DNA from: Micavibrio sp.
GTDB lineage: Bacteria > Pseudomonadota > Alphaproteobacteria > UBA9219
Assembly (NCBI GenBank): GCA_020718105.1
Contig: DYDA01000019.1
Coordinates: 1 to 38,119 of the forward strand
DNA: 38,119 bases
Direction of reading: 5' to 3'
The position numbers and the translations under genes are program-made. Below the pieces are notes generated by a model. The model saw only the letters and a program-made list of their open reading frames with translations. It had not been told where the DNA came from and ran no database searches. Within the stretch, counting starts at the first letter, position 1. Each line of letters opens with the position of its first letter. Of the stretch, positions 14,032-32,827 are shown in pieces.

Positions 14032-15222
14032 TTAGTGAACAACCGCAGGCCGCTCGGCGTTGTTCACGCGGGTCAATTGACCATGATAGGCGGCGGTCGC
14101 CAGCACATCGACCGCGCCGCGCAGGTAGTTGGGTTGGAGGTGGGCGTACAGCTCGGTCGTCCTTTGCACTGAATGGCCAAGGAGCCGCGCAATGAGGAAA
14201 AGGTCGACACCAGCCAAGGCCATGAGTGTTCCCGCCGTGTGGCGCAACGTGTGCGGCGTAACGTCCTCTATTCCGGCGCGCTCGCATGAGCGGCGGAATC
14301 CCGTGCGGATGTTTTTGACGGACTCAAAATTATACGCGATCACCTTCCCGCAAGGCGGCACGGTTTCTCCGGCCACCTCCGACTGCCCGCGCGCAAACTC
14401 TTCCTGCGCTTTTTTCGTTTCTATCAGGTCGCGGTAAAGATACTCGCTGATGGGAACGATGGCGCGACGCTTCTTGGTTTGTTGTCGGCCTTGTGGGTTC
14501 AGGTAAATAATCTTGTTCGCAAAATCCACCTGATCCCATGTGAGTTCCATCAGTGCGCCTTTTCGCGCCCCCGTGGTAACGGCTAGCTTGATAAAAAGGC
14601 GCACATGCGCTTCGGGACAATTGTCGAGCAGCCGCTCGATCTCTTCGGGCTCAAGATAGCGCATCTTGTGCTGCCCCATCGGCGGCAGCGGAATCTTGGG
14701 CGCGGAAGTCAACCGCCCGTTGACGATGGCGTGATTGAGGGAGGCCACGAGAACGACCAACTCGCGGCGGATGGTCGCCGAGGTGATGGGTCGCGTGTCT
14801 TCGACTTTTTTGATACCGTCTTTTGTTTGATAGACGCGAACTTTTCTCGTGCGTTCGCGCTCATAGCGTTTCAGTACCTGTGGCGTAAGGGTCGAGACGG
14901 TTGTCTCGCCCCCGAAGAACCCGACGAAGTTTTCAACGGTGCGCGCCGCCAGATCGGCGGTGGCGAGTTCGGGGCCGTGTTCCTGCAAATACCAGCGCAA
15001 GGCCGTAGCGATGGGATATTTTTCTGGTTTGGCGATGGGGCCGTGTTCTTCTTGATCGGCATATTCTAAGATGAACTCGCCGAGGATTTTTTCAGCTTCT
15101 GCGCGATCATCAGTGCGCGCACTGCGTCGCCGGATCCGTCTGGTGCTTTCGAACCAATAGATGTACCAAACTTTTTGATTGGGCTCTTTACCGAGCCACG
15201 GGGTTTTTCGCGCTCCTGACAT
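14032..15222 (-). CDS. int: Phage tyrosine integrase
   Basis: This 396-aa tyrosine recombinase catalyses site-specific integration and excision. The N-terminal ~100 residues form the arm/SAM-like region, starting MSGARKTPWL with WYIYW and RRRSARTDDRAEAE. The catalytic domain shows Arg220 (TTGARKGAL), a Lys near 250 (QQTKKRR), His324 and Arg327 (HTLRHTAGT), His350 (LLGHS) and Tyr359 (TTELYAHLQ), so all active-site residues are present. It reads toward tRNA-Thr, the usual layout for tRNA-integrating phages. An AAGG element lies upstream of the ATG at 15222. The first 157 bases overlap the 3' part of the Xis-like frame. Confidence 0.95.
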   Translation of the reverse strand: MSGARKTPWLGKEPNQKVWYIYWFESTRRIRRRSARTDDRAEAEKILGEFILEYADQEEHGPIAKPEKYPIATALRWYLQEHGPELATADLAARTVENFVGFFGGETTVSTLTPQVLKRYERERTRKVRVYQTKDGIKKVEDTRPITSATIRRELVVLVASLNHAIVNGRLTSAPKIPLPPMGQHKMRYLEPEEIERLLDNCPEAHVRLFIKLAVTTGARKGALMELTWDQVDFANKIIYLNPQGRQQTKKRRAIVPISEYLYRDLIETKKAQEEFARGQSEVAGETVPPCGKVIAYNFESVKNIRTGFRRSCERAGIEDVTPHTLRHTAGTLMALAGVDLFLIARLLGHSVQRTTELYAHLQPNYLRGAVDVLATAAYHGQLTRVNNAERPAVVH

Positions 15223-21840: not shown

Positions 21841-22473
21841 ATGAAGGATTATGAGATTACCATTAAGGTCAGAAACAATTTTCTGCTCTCCGCTATTCGG
21901 AAAGCCGGTTTTGAATCGCAAGCAGCTTTCGCGCGACACTGCGGTATCGGTTATGAAACGTTGTGCGCTTTTATTGCTCTCAAGCGATTACCCTTGCGCG
22001 TCAACGCACAAGGCGTTGAGCAATGGGCTGTCGCTGTCCAAAAAATGGCGGACGCCCTTGCAACGACGCCGGAGAGCCTGTTTCCGCCCCAGCATATACG
22101 CACTTGCCTTGAGAAGAATTCCGCAACTATCGAAATGGATGCCGGAGAGGCAGCATTTCTTATCGAAAACCACAGGGCATCCGCGCCAGACTACCTTTTG
22201 GAACAAAAGGAATTAGCCTCTCAACTCGACAATGCGCTGCAAACCCTTTCGCCACGCGATGCATCCGTTATCAGGGATCTGTTCGGCTTCGACGGACTAG
22301 CGTTGCAATACAAGGACTGCGCCAAAAAATACAACGTAAGCAGCGCGCGCATCCACTCCATCAAGCTCAGGGCACTAAGGGGGCTTGCGCGCCCATCCGT
22401 AAAAAGAACCTTACGGCCATTTCTTATCTCCCATGATGATTTACCGCAGGACTGTCAAATGGAGGCCATGTGA
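21841..22473 (+). CDS. HTH plus sigma-70 region-4-like protein
   Basis: This is a 210-aa protein. An N-terminal XRE-like HTH spans residues about 13-55 (LLSAIRKAGFESQAAFARHC). A sigma-70 region 4-like block lies at about 135-180: LSPRDASVIRDLFGF, then QYKDCAKKYNVSSARIHSIKLRAL. Regions 2 and 3 of sigma are absent, so it is not a complete sigma factor. It may redirect host RNA polymerase for phage genes or act as a plain transcription factor. GGAGG lies 9 bases before the ATG, which directly follows the helicase stop. Confidence 0.75.
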   Translation: MKDYEITIKVRNNFLLSAIRKAGFESQAAFARHCGIGYETLCAFIALKRLPLRVNAQGVEQWAVAVQKMADALATTPESLFPPQHIRTCLEKNSATIEMDAGEAAFLIENHRASAPDYLLEQKELASQLDNALQTLSPRDASVIRDLFGFDGLALQYKDCAKKYNVSSARIHSIKLRALRGLARPSVKRTLRPFLISHDDLPQDCQMEAM

Positions 22474-23578: not shown

Positions 23579-25733
23579 GCAGATGGATTTCAACGATGCG
23601 CGCCGCCAAGGCAACGAGCCGCGCGGCAAGATCGACATCGTTCTGCTCAAAGAACGCATGGGTGATTGCTATCGGCAGATTCTCGATCATCTTCTACCGA
23701 ACGGCGTTTATGTCGGCGAAGAGTTCCATTGCGGCGATATTTACGGCGCGCCCGGTGAAAGCCTGAAACTCAGCGTGCGCAAGAACAAGATGGGGGTCGG
23801 TGAGGATTTTGCCACAGGCCAGAAGTTCGGCGACCTGATCGACGTTTGGATGATCGTTCGGAGCGAGAATTACACGACGGCGATCAAAAACATCGCCGAA
23901 TTTCTGAACATAGCCGAACGCCTTCCTGCGCCAGCCGCTAAAACTCAAAAAAGCAAAGCGCCAGAAATGGGAGCGCCTGTCGCTCAATACAATTACACCG
24001 ACGCGCAAGGCACGATCATCCTCGTTGTCTATCGCCATGAGTTTGATGACAACGGCAAGCGCAAGAAGACCTTCCGGATTTGGAACGCCGTCACGCGCAA
24101 GTCAGAAGCCCCGATATCAGGCCGTCCTCTCTATAACCAAACAGGCATCGTCAAAGCCGATCTCGTCGTACTGGCCGAGGGCGAAAAAGCGGCAGACGCG
24201 CTTATTGCGGCGGGCGTTACGGCGACGAGCGCCGTGTGCGGATCCAACGCCCCGACCGACAAAACGGACTGGTCGCCTTTGGCAGGAAAGCGCGTTCTGA
24301 TCTGGCCAGATAACGATCTACCGGGAATGTCTTATGCGCAAAAATCGGCACAAGCGGTTCTGGCTGCCGGAGCTTTAAGCGTCGGCATTCTGCCCATTCC
24401 GCAAAGCAAGCCCGGTGGCTGGGATGCTGCGGACGCTGTTGCCGAGGGCATGGATGTTCGGGCTTACGTTGATGCCGCGATGCCGGAACCTGTCGTGCCG
24501 CCTGCCGCCGCGACGATCCCCGCTTATCCGGTTGGGGCTATCTTGGACGACGACAGCCCCATGCCGGACGACCTGATAGCCCCGCGCATTCTGACGCCCA
24601 GCGGCCTTGCGGTCTTCGGCGGCGCGCCAAAAGTCGGCAAGTCCGATTTTCTTTTTTCCCTTCTGGTACATGCGGCGGCTGGAAGGCCGTTCCTCGGCAT
24701 GATACCGCCGCGTCCCCTCAATGTTTTTTGTCTGCAAACCGAGATCGGCTACCACTATTTGCGCGAACGCCTTAAGCAGATGAAGATCGATCCTGAGATA
24801 CTTCCTCTCGTTCGCAAGAACCTCGTCATCACGCCGCAAGTGCGCCTGATCCTCGATGACAAGGGCGTCGAGATGGTGCGCGAGACGATCCTGCGCCATT
24901 TCGATCCGAAACTGCTGGACATTATTGCCATCGATCCCCTGCGCAACGTGTTCGACGTGGGCGAAGGCACGGGCGAAAACGATAACACGGCCATGCTGCA
25001 CTTTCTTCAGGAACGTGTGGAAAAACTGCGGTTTCTCGTCAATCCGGATGCGGGCGTCATTCTCGCCCACCACACGCGCAAGATCACCAAGCGCATGCTG
25101 GAGGAAGACCCATTCCAAGCCCTTAGCGGAGCGGGCAGTTTGCGAAGTTTCTATACCACGGGCGTGATCATGTTCCGCCCCGACGAGAACCAGAGCTTGC
25201 GCGAGCTGATGTTCGAGCTGCGCAACGGACAGGCCATCCCGACGAAAGGCATCGACAAGATCGACGGCGTCTGGCGCGAGGTCGAACGGCATTCCAAGCG
25301 TCTCGTCAACAAGGAGCATGGCGAGCGCCTCGATAACGAACGCCGTCGCCGACATGATGTGATCTTGCAACTCCTCTACGACGAAGGGCTGCGGGGCAAG
25401 CTCTACACCCCAAGCCAGTTCTGCCAAGCCTTCGAAAACAAGGCAGGCCTCGGCGGTCGTCATTCCATTCATGATCGCATCGACGTTTTGACCACAAAGG
25501 GTTTCATCAAGTTCAACAAGGAAGGCGGCGCAGCCAAAAGCAAATACGGTATGATGTGTGTCGAAGGCATGGAAATTCCGCGCGCGCAGCCGGACGTCGA
25601 TCCGCAAACGGGCGAGATCACAGACGTGATGATTTCGTATCTGCCAACTCACTTCAAGCAACCGACAGATGGCGCGATCCTGCCCGTCGAAAATTCGGAA
25701 GTCTGGATTTACCACGAGGGGGTTGAGCCATGA
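23568..25733 (+). CDS. Toprim primase - RecA-like helicase fusion
   Basis: This is a 721-aa replication protein. Residues 50-120 carry a CHC2-style primase region without the zinc Cys (GEDFATGQKFGDLID). A Toprim domain follows, with Glu204 (LAEGEK) and Asp248/Asp250 (WPDND). Residues 345-560 form a RepA/AAA_25-type helicase: Walker A GAPKVGKS (352-359), Walker B IIAIDPLRN (Asp456) and ILAHHTRK. A winged-helix-like C-terminus ends the protein. The open frame extends to 23415, but MAHEQMDF at 23568, with AAAAGG upstream and a short overlap with the nuclease gene, is the best start. The repeat-rich candidate origin lies directly downstream. Confidence 0.9.
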   Translation: MAHEQMDFNDARRQGNEPRGKIDIVLLKERMGDCYRQILDHLLPNGVYVGEEFHCGDIYGAPGESLKLSVRKNKMGVGEDFATGQKFGDLIDVWMIVRSENYTTAIKNIAEFLNIAERLPAPAAKTQKSKAPEMGAPVAQYNYTDAQGTIILVVYRHEFDDNGKRKKTFRIWNAVTRKSEAPISGRPLYNQTGIVKADLVVLAEGEKAADALIAAGVTATSAVCGSNAPTDKTDWSPLAGKRVLIWPDNDLPGMSYAQKSAQAVLAAGALSVGILPIPQSKPGGWDAADAVAEGMDVRAYVDAAMPEPVVPPAAATIPAYPVGAILDDDSPMPDDLIAPRILTPSGLAVFGGAPKVGKSDFLFSLLVHAAAGRPFLGMIPPRPLNVFCLQTEIGYHYLRERLKQMKIDPEILPLVRKNLVITPQVRLILDDKGVEMVRETILRHFDPKLLDIIAIDPLRNVFDVGEGTGENDNTAMLHFLQERVEKLRFLVNPDAGVILAHHTRKITKRMLEEDPFQALSGAGSLRSFYTTGVIMFRPDENQSLRELMFELRNGQAIPTKGIDKIDGVWREVERHSKRLVNKEHGERLDNERRRRHDVILQLLYDEGLRGKLYTPSQFCQAFENKAGLGGRHSIHDRIDVLTTKGFIKFNKEGGAAKSKYGMMCVEGMEIPRAQPDVDPQTGEITDVMISYLPTHFKQPTDGAILPVENSEVWIYHEGVEP

Positions 25734-26110
25734 CTTTTGCCCTTCAAAACCCTGTCCCTGAGCGCGTGAATCTGGCCATTGGCGGCGTGAATCTGGGCCA
25801 GATTTACGTAAATCTAGAGGCCACGGGAATCTGTGAATCTGGAATACGCCTGTTTTATCATACGCTTAACGATCATTTCCAGATTCCCCGTGAATCTGGA
25901 CGTGAATCTGTAAATCTAGAAAATACGCCAACCATTTCAGGGCGTTATTCCAGATTCACAGATTCACAAAATCCCACTCTCCCTACGGGAGAGAGAGACG
26001 CCTTACGGCGTTCTCTCCTCCAACGGTCGAGGGAGTTGCGCTTGGACATGATCCGCGATGCCCCAAACCCCGTTCCCACCACCCGCAAAAAACGAAGGAG
26101 AAATTTATGA
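25730..26110 (+). CDS. Doubtful ORF over the repeat cluster
   Basis: This 126-codon frame begins with an ATGA overlap on the primase stop. Its N-terminal half repeats VNL because the DNA repeats GTGAATCTG, and the same repeat occurs in other frames and on the other strand. Conservation is therefore probably at the DNA level. The C-terminus (RDAPNPVPTTRKKRRRNL) is basic. It could be a small real protein, a leader, or no gene. Confidence 0.3.
   Translation: MTFALQNPVPERVNLAIGGVNLGQIYVNLEATGICESGIRLFYHTLNDHFQIPRESGRESVNLENTPTISGRYSRFTDSQNPTLPTGERDALRRSLLQRSRELRLDMIRDAPNPVPTTRKKRRRNL
25766..25967. repeat. Iteron-like cluster, candidate phage origin
   Basis: The octamer TGAATCTG occurs exactly at 25767, 25788, 25834, 25891 and 25903, and as its complement CAGATTCA at 25951 and 25959. 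Near copies lie at 25799, 25809, 25826, 25880 and 25911. A perfect 16-bp palindrome, AGATTTACGTAAATCT, lies at 25800-25815. CCAGATTC/GAATCTGG face each other at 25879-25899. Twelve copies in 200 bases directly after the primase-helicase gene fit an initiator-binding origin. Confidence 0.6.
25977..26017. other. Two tandem hairpins
   Basis: CTCTCCC (25977-25983), TAC, GGGAGAG (25987-25993) is a perfect 7-bp stem. The second hairpin (25993-26017) has CGCC-TTAC-GGCG at its tip and a GAGAG/CTCTC base with one bulge. The two share the last G. They could be origin secondary structure, a transcription pause or a terminator; there is no T tract. Confidence 0.45.
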
Positions 26111-26427
26111 TGAGGAATGATCCGATCAAGGCCCGCGATGCCAACATCTACTGGCGCTATTCCCACACGAACCGCGTCTATGACGTGCGGGTTCGTGATC
26201 GGTATGATCTGTGCGAAAGTCGCGTCACATCGAGCGGCTCGTTCTGGACGGGCTGGAAACACGCCCGCGCCACAAGCCCCGAAGCGTTGTTCGGCGAAAT
26301 GCTGTTTCGCTTCGGCTTCACCACGCTTGAAGAAGCGCGGATCGCTCTTTTGCAATTTGCCAAGATCGACAACTGCCAGTGGGCGCGTGACATGCTGGAG
26401 GCCCGCACCTACGGGAGGGTCGCATGA
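26107..26427 (+). CDS. Small phage protein of unknown function
   Basis: This is a 106-aa soluble protein with aromatic/Arg-rich strands (IYWRYSHTNRVYDVRVRDRYD), then helices, one of them LFGEMLFRFGFTTLEEA. No family is recognised. AGGAG lies 7 bases before the first ATG, and a second ATG follows at once. The stop overlaps the next start (ATGA), so the two are coupled. Confidence 0.65.
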   Translation: MMRNDPIKARDANIYWRYSHTNRVYDVRVRDRYDLCESRVTSSGSFWTGWKHARATSPEALFGEMLFRFGFTTLEEARIALLQFAKIDNCQWARDMLEARTYGRVA

Positions 26428-26855
26428 GCAAAGGCAAAAGCCTCACGCTCAAGGACGTTGCCGACCGCATCGAGCAAGCGGCGCACACCCTGCGTAAGCT
26501 GCCCAAGGTTACCGTGCAAGGCTACTTCAACGCTTGGCCGCCTATCGTGCGTGAAGCGATGGACGCGTATGGATGGGAGGACGCGCACATCCACCCCGGC
26601 CCGCCATCCGCGCGTCAGATCACCGAGATGGACGAAGTGATGCTCTGGCTCATGGGACTGGAGCGCGAGGAGGTACGCATCGTGTGGCTGCGCGCCAACG
26701 GCATTCGCTGGAAACGCATCGGGCTTGAGCTGGGCTGGTCGGTGCGCAAGCTGCAATACGATTGGCGCGTCGCCCTCATGAAGATCGTGCATCGTTTGAA
26801 CAATCCAAACGAGAAAATCGTGCTCCCTTACAAGCGGCGTATCCATGGTGGATAA
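26424..26855 (+). CDS. DUF6362-like HTH protein
   Basis: This is a 143-aa protein. The AWPPIVREAMDAYGWEDAHI block and PSARQITEMDEVMLWLMGLE are followed by a region-4-like HTH, IRWKRIGLELGWSVRKLQYDW. From memory this is the DUF6362 family of alphaproteobacterial phages, whose role is unknown. The HTH suggests late-gene control or DNA packaging. GGGAGG precedes the ATG. It is the last gene before the long non-coding repeat region. Confidence 0.75.
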   Translation: MSKGKSLTLKDVADRIEQAAHTLRKLPKVTVQGYFNAWPPIVREAMDAYGWEDAHIHPGPPSARQITEMDEVMLWLMGLEREEVRIVWLRANGIRWKRIGLELGWSVRKLQYDWRVALMKIVHRLNNPNEKIVLPYKRRIHGG

Positions 26856-26858
26856 GCA

Positions 26859-26940
26859 AAAATGCGCAATCGATCTTTAAGCAATTCATTTGATTGGCAA
26901 ACCCCATGCGCATTTTAGTTCTGCGTGTTTTGCGCATTTT
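26859..26940. repeat. TGCGCATTTT repeats
   Basis: AAAATGCGCA at 26859-26868 is the exact inverse of TGCGCATTTT at 26907-26916 and 26931-26940. The first two could pair as a 10-bp stem just after the DUF6362-like gene. They may be a terminator-like structure or regulator sites. Confidence 0.5.
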
Positions 26941-27014
26941 CTGGCATGGTTTTGATTATGGTCGGGAGACGTGCGGGCGGGCAACGCGGCCCTGAGGAAC
27001 CACCTTACACCGTC

Positions 27015-27402
27015 TGACATCATCGAACAGTAAGCAAGATTTTCGCACAGTATCCGAGGTTTTTCGAACATCATCCGACATCACCTCACATCATCGCACA
27101 GTATCCGAGATCTTTCGGACATCATCGCACAGTATCTCACATCATCCGACATCATCGAACATCATGCGGATAGTGTCGCCTCTTTCAGCAATTTTATGAC
27201 GCTTTCGGCAAGGAAAACGCATCGAAGATTGCCGATTAAGCGCAACATCATCTGACACTATCGAACACCATCCGACATCATCTCACATCATCGAGCATTA
27301 TCTTACATCATCTCACATGAACGCATATGAACGCACATCATCGCGCATTATCTCGCATGAACGCGCATCAACTCACATCATCGCACAGTATCTCACATGA
27401 TC
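27015..27402. repeat. 10-bp phased direct-repeat array
   Basis: The unit is NNACATCATC, with common variants ACAGTATC, GCATTATC and ACATGAAC. In 27243-27402 sixteen units follow each other with exactly 10-bp spacing. A first block at 27045-27177 has 13 units of 10 or 11 bp, with outliers back to 27015. The 27179-27242 gap is unrelated and shows no gene. The period equals about one helical turn and not a codon multiple, so this is a DNA-level array. Confidence 0.85.
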
Positions 27403-27521
27403 GCGGCGGGTTTGGCCGCGCCCAAGCCGCAAAGGATACGGCCTCCATCCACAACGGATACAGGCATGCCTCCCATCCCTTTGAAATCAAAAGGTACTTC
27501 CCGCCGCGAACCCTATGGGGG

Positions 27522-27554
27522 CGGGCGGAGCCCGATTGAACCCTACATGTAGGG
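27522..27554. other. Hairpin and 14-bp palindrome before the methyltransferase
   Basis: CGGGC-GGA-GCCCG (27522-27534) is a 5-bp hairpin. CCCTACATGTAGGG (27541-27554) is a perfect palindrome. Both lie just before the methyltransferase start, and they may end upstream transcription or bind a regulator. Confidence 0.4.
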
Positions 27555-27583
27555 GTTAAAAGCGGGCAGCCACCCCACATGTT

Positions 27584-29098
27584 GTGGTCTGGAAGGCTCC
27601 CGATAAAGAACAAGAAAACAAAAACTTAGCTGCCGCCTTGCGCGGCTTCCCCTGCATGGATTCTTGGGGCGCAGGAATCCGGCCCCCACAACAACCGAGG
27701 TTGGCTTTGAATGGTCTGGCTTTATCTGCCGCCGGAGGCGATCACGCATGCCCAAACGAAGGGCGCGCGTTGTTCGGCCTCTCGCTTTGCGCGGGCGCAG
27801 GCGGACTCGACCTCGGCCTCCACCTCGCTTTGCCAGACTATCGAACTGTTTGTTACGTTGAGCGGGAAAGCTACGCCGCGTCCACGCTCGTGGCGCGGAT
27901 GGAAAACGCGGCCTTGGATCCTGCGCCTGTCTGGGACGATGTTAAAACCTTCCATGGTAAAGCGTGGCGCGGCGTGGTGGATATCGTCCATGGAGGCTAT
28001 CCGTGCCAGCCGTTCTCCGTCGCGGGTCGTAAGCTCGGCGACAAAGACCCACGCCACCTGTGGCCGGACATTGCGCGGATCGTGCGCGAGATCAAGCCGC
28101 CGCTCTGCTTCTTCGAAAATGTCGGCGGACATCTACGACTGGGGTTCGAACAAGTCCACGATGACCTTCGATCAATGGGTTATCGCGTTAAGGCGGGTTT
28201 GTTTACTGCGGAAGAAGTCGGCGCGCCCCACAAGCGCGAGCGATTGTTCATCTTGGCCTACCGTGAGGGTGTCTTCGGCGAACGGGGCATCACGCAAAGA
28301 GATCTCGGCTGGAAATCCGAAGGGGCGTTTGGAAGTGAGCGCGGCCCTATGGTTGACCCCGCGCGCGCAGGAGACGACAGAAAAACAGGAAAGCTTCATA
28401 AAGCGGAACGGCGACCGGACGGATCGGTGCTTCGGATCGCTGACGGCGCAGACGACCCTATGGCCAACGGCGACAGCGACGGACTCGCTCGTTCAGCGCG
28501 CGCGACCACCGGAGAAAATGATCCGCAAGGACGGAAGAAACGTCCTTCGCACGCCGAGCCTCGCGGAGACGGTTCTACAGCCGGAAGGTTTTCCTTACAC
28601 GAAGCAGGATTTAGCGAAGGCAATGAGCGGCGGACAATATCGGATAGCGAAAGCGCAGTGGCCGACACCACGCGCCAATCCAAACAGCGACCGACAGACC
28701 AAACCGACGCCATCTCAGTTGAAGGGCGAACACGGACTCAATCTGGCGATGGTGGCCGTCACGCACACTTGGCCGACGCCCCAATCATCGGATTACAGGG
28801 AACGGGGGAATCTCGCGAACCCCTGCATCCAGAGGCGGATGGCCATGGGGAAGCAACTCAATCTGTCGATGATGGCCCATCCGGCGACATTCCGCTCTGG
28901 CCCCCAAGACCAAACGATTACGCGGCATGGGGAAGCGTCCCCGCTGACCTTAAACCCGCCGTTTGTCGAATGGCTGATGGGTTGGCCTATCGGGTGGACA
29001 GACTCCGCCTTTGCGGCAACGGCGTGGTTCCGTTGGTCGCGGCTTATGCGTTTTGCACTTTGGCAACTCAAGCAATTTCAGAAACCGGAACAGAATGA
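27584..29098 (+). CDS. C5-cytosine DNA methyltransferase (orphan)
   Basis: This is a 504-aa frame. Cytosine methyltransferase motifs appear in order: I, LSLCAGAGGLDLG (about 67-79); IV, GGYPCQPFS with catalytic Cys141; VI, ENVGGH (177-182); VIII, PHKRERLFIL; then a long variable region with repeated MAD/LAD-like words (residues ~240-440); and motif X, LCGNGVVPLVAAYAF. No restriction gene is nearby, so it probably protects phage DNA. The start is uncertain: a GTG at 27584, or an ATG at 27656 that better fits motif I distance. The whole gene is overlapped by an open +1 frame. Confidence 0.88.
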   Translation: MVWKAPDKEQENKNLAAALRGFPCMDSWGAGIRPPQQPRLALNGLALSAAGGDHACPNEGRALFGLSLCAGAGGLDLGLHLALPDYRTVCYVERESYAASTLVARMENAALDPAPVWDDVKTFHGKAWRGVVDIVHGGYPCQPFSVAGRKLGDKDPRHLWPDIARIVREIKPPLCFFENVGGHLRLGFEQVHDDLRSMGYRVKAGLFTAEEVGAPHKRERLFILAYREGVFGERGITQRDLGWKSEGAFGSERGPMVDPARAGDDRKTGKLHKAERRPDGSVLRIADGADDPMANGDSDGLARSARATTGENDPQGRKKRPSHAEPRGDGSTAGRFSLHEAGFSEGNERRTISDSESAVADTTRQSKQRPTDQTDAISVEGRTRTQSGDGGRHAHLADAPIIGLQGTGESREPLHPEADGHGEATQSVDDGPSGDIPLWPPRPNDYAAWGSVPADLKPAVCRMADGLAYRVDRLRLCGNGVVPLVAAYAFCTLATQAISETGTE

Positions 29099-29117
29099 CC
29101 TCTTCAGCGACGCATAG
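27711..29117 (+). CDS. Overprinted +1-frame ORF (WPTP-repeat type)
   Basis: This 468-codon frame lies almost wholly inside the C5-methyltransferase gene, one base out of phase. It starts MVWLYLPPE and has SSWPT, LWLTPRAQE, LWPTATATD, QWPTPRANP and TWPTPQSSD repeats, then LNPPFVEWLMGWPIGWTD near the end. I recall phage proteins with this same beginning, WPTP repeats and ending. Each WPTP word is the same DNA as a MAD/LAD word of the methyltransferase frame. It may be a real second protein, the product of a frameshift, or a shadow that gets annotated often. The N-terminal half is biased to Ser/Arg/Ala, as shadows are. Confidence 0.4.
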   Translation: MVWLYLPPEAITHAQTKGARCSASRFARAQADSTSASTSLCQTIELFVTLSGKATPRPRSWRGWKTRPWILRLSGTMLKPSMVKRGAAWWISSMEAIRASRSPSRVVSSATKTHATCGRTLRGSCARSSRRSASSKMSADIYDWGSNKSTMTFDQWVIALRRVCLLRKKSARPTSASDCSSWPTVRVSSANGASRKEISAGNPKGRLEVSAALWLTPRAQETTEKQESFIKRNGDRTDRCFGSLTAQTTLWPTATATDSLVQRARPPEKMIRKDGRNVLRTPSLAETVLQPEGFPYTKQDLAKAMSGGQYRIAKAQWPTPRANPNSDRQTKPTPSQLKGEHGLNLAMVAVTHTWPTPQSSDYRERGNLANPCIQRRMAMGKQLNLSMMAHPATFRSGPQDQTITRHGEASPLTLNPPFVEWLMGWPIGWTDSAFAATAWFRWSRLMRFALWQLKQFQKPEQNDLFSDA

Positions 29118-32205: not shown

Positions 32206-32290
32206 GTGAGCAATCAAATGGCTTTCTTCGGCTTATCCCGATCATTTGATGATCGTGCAACAAAGACGCGGGAGCGCAGGAATATGGCCC

Positions 32291-32827
32291 ATGGGAGTCA
32301 GTCAACGAGAATTCGCCGCGCTCTGGGGCAAAAGTCGCGGGGCTGTGCAAAAGGCCATCGCATCGGGGCGCGTTTCGCCTGAAGCCGATGGGACAATCGA
32401 TCCTGACAAGGCGCTTGCCGCGCTGAAGGTCAACACGGATCCCTCACAGGTTCGCGGTAAAAAGCGCATTCCCCAAGCCGCCCTTCAATCGCTGCAAGAA
32501 ACCTTGCAGGAGTCGGGACATGGCGCAGGCGGCGGCACAACCTTTGTTCAAGCGCGAACCGCGAACGAAGTGCTTAAAGCGCAAGAACGCAAACTGCGCG
32601 TTCAGAAACTTAAAGGGGAATTGATCGACCGTTCGTTGGCGACGGCTTTGGTTTATCAGATTGCGCGACAGGAACGCGATGCGTGGCAAATGTGGCCGAC
32701 CCGCGTTGCCGCTGCGCTGGCGGCGGAGATCGGCGTGGATACGCACCTTGTGCAAACCGCCCTTGAGAAATTCGTGCGCGAGCATTTGGGGCAACTCGCC
32801 GACATCAAGATCGATTTACGCGCATGA
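32291..32827 (+). CDS. Terminase small subunit (Nu1-like)
   Basis: This is a 178-aa protein with an N-terminal winged helix MGVSQREFAALWGKSRGAVQ that should bind the packaging site. A linker follows, then a helical region (NEVLKAQERKLRVQKLKGEL) and a C-terminal part (WQMWPTRVAAALAAEIGVD) common to phage DNA-packaging proteins. The frame begins at 32246, but the HTH and the AGGA site favour 32291. Its stop overlaps the large subunit start (ATGA), the typical packaging pair. Confidence 0.85.
   Translation: MGVSQREFAALWGKSRGAVQKAIASGRVSPEADGTIDPDKALAALKVNTDPSQVRGKKRIPQAALQSLQETLQESGHGAGGGTTFVQARTANEVLKAQERKLRVQKLKGELIDRSLATALVYQIARQERDAWQMWPTRVAAALAAEIGVDTHLVQTALEKFVREHLGQLADIKIDLRA

Follow-up and report, generated by a model that had tools for sequence, protein, structure and literature searches.

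The tandem array of 10-bp units described here is a confirmed cis element that is conserved in one bacterial family and lies within a predicted late leader. It is located in a prophage in the window, i.e. the whole analysed stretch of 38,119 nucleotides, which forms part of a 1.91-Mb, 42-contig genome. As a tentative explanation, we propose that the array acts as a stop zone of the Rho type in the leader of the late operon, which would be passed only by antiterminated polymerase. We infer the promoter activity, the termination of transcription by the array and the action of both Rho and the DUF6362 protein at this place.

Block 2 of the array (27245-27404, plus strand) consists of 16.0 copies of a 10-bp unit with the consensus ACATCATCNN and zero indels, as obtained by unit decoding and with Tandem Repeats Finder. 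An earlier, sequence-only reading had already described these sixteen indel-free units, placing them at 27243-27402. Its second block of 10/11-bp units is present as well, but begins about 40 bp before the reported start of 27045. Unit decoding located this block 1 at 27007-27179 (plus strand), with 17 units in steps of 10 bp, three steps of 11 bp and a higher degeneracy than in block 2; Tandem Repeats Finder reported 10.1 copies at 27064-27165 with 2% indels. The blocks are separated by a 45-bp dyad, GCAATTTT ... AAGATTGC (27188-27232, plus strand), and the step from the last unit of block 1 to the first unit of block 2 is 75 bp in the window. A GC-rich inverted repeat, CGCGGC..GCCGCG (27402-27420, plus strand), closes block 2. 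Each block is followed on its 3' side by a potential hairpin, the dyad after block 1 and the GC-rich inverted repeat after block 2, and a GC-hairpin resembling the latter was also present 3' of the array in the relatives L008 and G022. When the dyad was evaluated as a covarying RNA stem, 79% of the cells were paired and the covariation was weak, not clearly above shuffles.

The autocorrelation at lag 10, calculated in 150-bp windows, reached 0.71 in block 2 and did not exceed 0.43 at any lag outside the array region of the window. Within the unit of block 2, the columns C2, A3, A6 and C8 are invariant or nearly so, and columns 5 and 9 vary freely, differing between most adjacent units. This uneven change per column (p about 0.00015) departs from the expectation for a young tandem array under unbiased drift. 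The sequence-only reading had seen one copy on every helical turn, on one face of the DNA. With 10.0 bp per unit and about 10.5 bp per helical turn, this holds true locally, but over the 16 units the drift amounts to roughly three quarters of a turn. The gap between the flanking genes (26856-27710) contains no convincing gene. A coding origin of the array was rejected, as its period is not a codon multiple, in line with the earlier reading, and the frames are closed. A structured RNA was also rejected, the folding of the whole leader being ordinary (z-score -0.8).

Relatives of the prophage were gathered via homologues of the upstream DUF6362 gene, from viral contigs and from genomes of the same family. 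The sequence-only reading had suggested a search for the same array at the same place in related prophages and had regarded absence from all of them, together with the lack of a bound protein, as a sign of neutral expansion; the array was found at the same place in related phages. Two blocks and a dyad follow the same gene in the L008 group (L008, L009 and L011) and in G013/G014. The inter-block step of 75 bp is identical in the window and all of these phages, which over this step share 41-55 of 75 positions with the window and show no indel. In G013/G014, array and dyad are unchanged though DUF6362 (39-40% identical) and the promoter repeats (TGCAACA) differ. L010 lacks the dyad and carries a single block of about 10 units; 3-4 units are present in each of G022 and G008:C43, and G007 has degenerate blocks of the ACACTGTCGG type. 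In G008:C23 (L271), five dyads AGCAAT...ATTGCT with a period of about 98 bp extend from about 200 to 640 bp 3' of the DUF6362 gene; their interiors are variable, and short unit blocks lie in between. This series is a different expansion of the same leader. The copy number among relatives ranges from 0 to about 33 units. The array was not found in L007 and G001, the two closest relatives (DUF6362 identity 80 and 78%), which retain the flanks on both sides, nor in more distant DUF6362 prophages. As the unit-score matrix was trained on these same arrays, only its contrast with array-less loci is to be relied on: G001 and L007 scored about as low as shuffles. Within the family, the unit pattern occurred nowhere but at this locus, and among 398 genomes of the phylum it matched this genome and one isolated run of three units, with zero matches for reversed-pattern controls. 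Among GenBank phage records, nothing matched at the DNA level, and a single weak match was obtained at the protein level. The DUF6362 tree is too poorly resolved for counting gains and losses of the array.

The prophage is arranged in the order integrase, repressor, recombination and replication genes, DUF6362, array, two methyltransferases, three small genes on the opposite strand, terminase, portal and protease. A predicted late-type promoter falls between the DUF6362 gene and the array in this order, and the first gene 3' of the array encodes a DNA methyltransferase (27711-29117, plus strand, phrog_1008). Among the replication genes, 21841-22470 codes for a protein containing a sigma-70 region 4 domain (RpoD-like C-terminus). 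A comparison with 15 relative loci, several of them spanning this region, detected nothing similar to this protein. A predicted iteron-type origin with GTGAATCTGG / CCAGATTCAC copies on both strands (25764-25967) adjoins the primase-helicase gene. The ORF called at 25730-26110 is probably this origin and not a gene, and was rejected for that reason as gene content tracking the array. Relatives have other iteron words at the same place (GTCATTCTTGG, GTCACTA and CAGTTGGC). The GTCACTA type is common to L008 and G001, yet only L008 carries the array. Origin type and presence of the array hence vary independently, and the array is unlikely to be the origin itself. An AT-rich stretch at the origin is also present in G001 (TATATATAAATATATA) and, with one base different, in L008.

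The DUF6362 gene (26424-26855, plus strand; Pfam DUF6362, 4e-31) is predicted to encode a late antiterminator similar to Q of phage 21. A Q-like role had been considered from the gene order before the structure search was performed. In the comparison of the AF2 model (pLDDT 76) with solved structures, the best aligned entry was the phage 21 Q protein 6p1c with an rmsd of 3.1 over 108 of 143 residues and a Z of 9.3, a moderate value for a helical protein that is suggestive and not proof. Structures of sigma region 4 ranked behind it (Z about 7.5). The structural alignment with phage 21 Q contains 8% identical residues, which is no meaningful sequence identity, and Foldseek alone gave no significant match for the model. 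The model moderately resembles the Q21-type fold, a helix-turn-helix like that of sigma region 4 with extra N-terminal helices. Taken together, fold, promoter layout and gene order make DUF6362 a probable late antiterminator of the Q type, accompanied by a recognisable promoter module. It is unlikely to bind the array, since array and dyad are preserved in phages in which DUF6362 and the promoter repeats have diverged. DUF6362 was not mentioned in the literature searched. For this uncharacterised and widespread protein, the assignment, if true, would provide a testable role as late-gene antiterminator of many phages.

Directly upstream of the array, and absent from the earlier reading, lies a late-promoter module predicted by homology of layout. 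Direct repeats resembling a Q binding element, TGCGCA / TGCGTG / TGCGCA (26907-26936, plus strand), follow each other in steps of 15 and 9 bp (24 bp overall). They precede a predicted -10 element, CATGGT (26945-26950, plus strand), and a predicted -10-like pause element, TATGGT (26957-26962, plus strand), located 12 bp from the -10 element as in relatives. When the 150 bp 3' of the gene were compared at 54 DUF6362 loci, the best direct repeat was spaced by exactly 24 bp in about 24 of them. The repeated word is TGCAACA in most DUF6362 phages and TGCGCA in the group of the window, and on its 3' side follow a -10-like hexamer, a second one 12 bp further on and a G-rich stretch (GGGGAG in most). 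At the level of sequence, direct repeats beside a -10 element and a -10-like pause element thus recur across diverse DUF6362 loci, and the module found 3' of DUF6362 in many diverse phages is probably a late promoter of the Q type. The same genome contains another prophage (G000:C30, near 14150-14524) with a 42-43% identical DUF6362, promoter repeats of the GCAACATTTT type and no array.

In lambdoid phages, polymerase starting at PR' encounters a terminator in the leader, which it passes after modification by Q. The array, being 3' of the predicted late promoter, would accordingly occupy the leader, the place of the terminator tR' in these phages. 21Q binds QBE subsites arranged as direct repeats at a promoter whose earliest transcribed bases include a -10-like pause element (PMC6606751). 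The PR'/QBE/tR' region of phage 21 with 21Q shares with the window a regulator gene of the Q fold, direct repeats by the -10 element, a -10-like element and a leader before the late genes (PMC6606751). The repeat spacing differs (about 8 in phage 21, but 9, 15 and 24 bp here), and a single terminator in phage 21 contrasts with the long repeat array.

According to the proposed mechanism, the predicted late promoter (about 26907-26962) would fire by default and the array would be transcribed as the leader of the phage late operon. The nascent RNA, which would be unstructured, C-rich and G-poor and would present a YC dinucleotide in almost every stretch of 10 nt, could load the Rho factor of the host, and the dyad and the GC hairpin 3' of block 2 may slow RNA polymerase. 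DUF6362 would load at the direct repeats by the promoter while the polymerase pauses at the -10-like element, and may render it resistant, so that the leader is passed and the downstream genes and the terminase are reached.

The composition of the array RNA is consistent with loading of Rho, for which the host genome has a gene. C>G bubbles and (YC)N9-13 motifs serve to describe rut sites (PMC9160355). The C/G ratio of the sense RNA was 2.8 in block 2 and 2.1 in block 1, and the array RNA contained 1.6-1.9 YC per 10 nt (about 1.6 in block 2). The sense RNA of block 2 was the least structured among the 160-nt prophage segments compared. When windows of 80 nt were ranked by C>G, the top one of the array region reached at least the 99th percentile of its own contig in seven of nine array loci. 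The features of a rut tract (C>G, unstructured, spaced YC, sense strand) were found in both blocks of the window and in most relatives, and were weak in G007 and G008:C23. The constancy of array and dyad in G013/G014, where DUF6362 and promoter repeats differ, also suits a generic terminator.

Several observations count against the Rho reading. The leaders of G007 and G008:C23 show little overall C excess (C/G 1.1 and 1.0), and their near-palindromic units fit a DNA-binding dimer better. Moreover, Rho needs no strict 10-nt phasing. The array shares C-rich, G-poor, unstructured RNA with YC at intervals of 9-13 nt with rut sites but differs in being a strictly phased tandem repeat, which to our knowledge is not found in other rut sites. 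The absence of any array from two sister phages also counts against the stop zone, as do the ordinary folding of the whole leader, the weak covariation of the dyad arms, and the moderate Z of the DUF6362 model with no significant match by Foldseek alone. A general C-richness downstream of DUF6362 in distant phages was not supported; the window itself gave 0.19, with a test region that stops short of block 2. In a more speculative and rather improbable extension, each 10-nt unit would be one docking dinucleotide of a modular Rho-loading array, the copy number of which would tune the dependence of late genes on DUF6362 in Alphaproteobacteria. If the stop-zone reading as such is true, the array would be a terminator built from phased short repeats.

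A terminator made of repeats has a precedent in the gene transfer agent cluster of Caulobacter: experiments showed terGTA, which consists of three direct repeats of 150 bp along with imperfect inverted repeats, to be a strong terminator that polymerase passes, in part, only when modified by GafZ (PMC11150451). Common to both systems are an alphaproteobacterial phage-like late cluster and tandem and inverted repeats early in the transcript, 3' of a promoter served by a known or, here, predicted antiterminator (PMC11150451). The five dyads of G008:C23 with their period of about 98 bp and their short unit blocks may be set beside this precedent. In contrast, the three 150-bp repeats of terGTA are GC-rich and follow the first gene, whereas the 10-bp units of the window are C-rich and precede it, and GafZ is reported to be unlike Q proteins (PMC11150451), whereas the DUF6362 model resembles 21Q.

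As an alternative, which the sequence-only reading had raised for a repressor and which we consider possible though not likely, the array could be a cooperative DNA-binding site. A small dimer of the ribbon-helix-helix or HTH type, from phage or host, would occupy one unit per 10 bp and coat the leader, as a roadblock or as an operator of late transcription. MetJ and ParR coat their own arrays cooperatively in this way. The strict 10-bp steps with four near-invariant columns and the exact, indel-free 75-bp step between the blocks at 41-55 of 75 identities favour such an array, as do the units of G007 and G008:C23, which are near-palindromic (GACANTGTC; close to a 9-bp palindrome) with 2.4 and 2.3 of 4 pairs versus about 0.5-1.1 when slid. 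The units of the window, however, are hardly palindromic (1.26 of 4 pairs), and no candidate binder was found in the ORFs scanned. The genes common to array phages also occur in array-less ones, and a copy number that falls to 0 and rises to 33 fits a binding array poorly. Precedents for split direct-repeat arrays are parC and tubC (PMC5016525). The parC of ParMRC and the tubC of TubZRC likewise have separate blocks made up of direct repeats of about 10-11 bp; here, by contrast, no partition genes were found, the unit is near-symmetric only in some relatives, and the prophage is integrated.

It is unlikely that the array is a minisatellite evolving neutrally or nearly so, which slippage and recombination have spread and removed in an untranslated leader that tolerates such changes. 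The variable copy number would suit this explanation, and L010 looks like an L008-type locus minus block 1 and dyad; the sisters L007 and G001 lack the array between intact flanks. Opposed to it are the same motif, place and orientation across several genera, with DUF6362 identity down to 39%, the uneven conservation of the columns and the fixed inter-block step. The conserved promoter module 3' of DUF6362 would make late-gene control in these phages directly testable even if the array merely served protein binding or were a minisatellite.

A partition centromere, a second replication origin or a packaging site, all considered in the sequence-only reading, is highly improbable: two blocks of tandem 10-bp direct repeats around a spacer do resemble parC (PMC5016525), but an integrase is present, neither an adjacent ParM-type NTPase with a ParR-type ribbon-helix-helix protein, as in a type II (ParMRC) centromere, nor a ParA or TubZ gene was recognised in the ORFs scanned, iterons adjoin the primase gene and not the array, their words varying independently of it, the terminase small subunit gene (32246-32824, phrog_57) lies 5 kb downstream and not next to or around the array as expected of cos or pac, and close relatives of the same gene order lack the array.

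A wider spread of the array was rejected, as scans of viral and genome contigs match 10-bp tandem arrays in unrelated phyla, but with a pattern that selects for such arrays. Arrays of the ACANNATC type with a 10-bp period, for which the pattern likewise selects, were seen in L205, L192, L155, L114, L121, L168 and others, from Treponema, Ignavibacteriae, Bacteroidaceae, Dehalococcoidia and Algoriphagus. A small gene or gene pair (MNLL/MSIL..., then MTDP...), missing in the window, is located 3' of the array in L226, L227, L008, L010 and L272.
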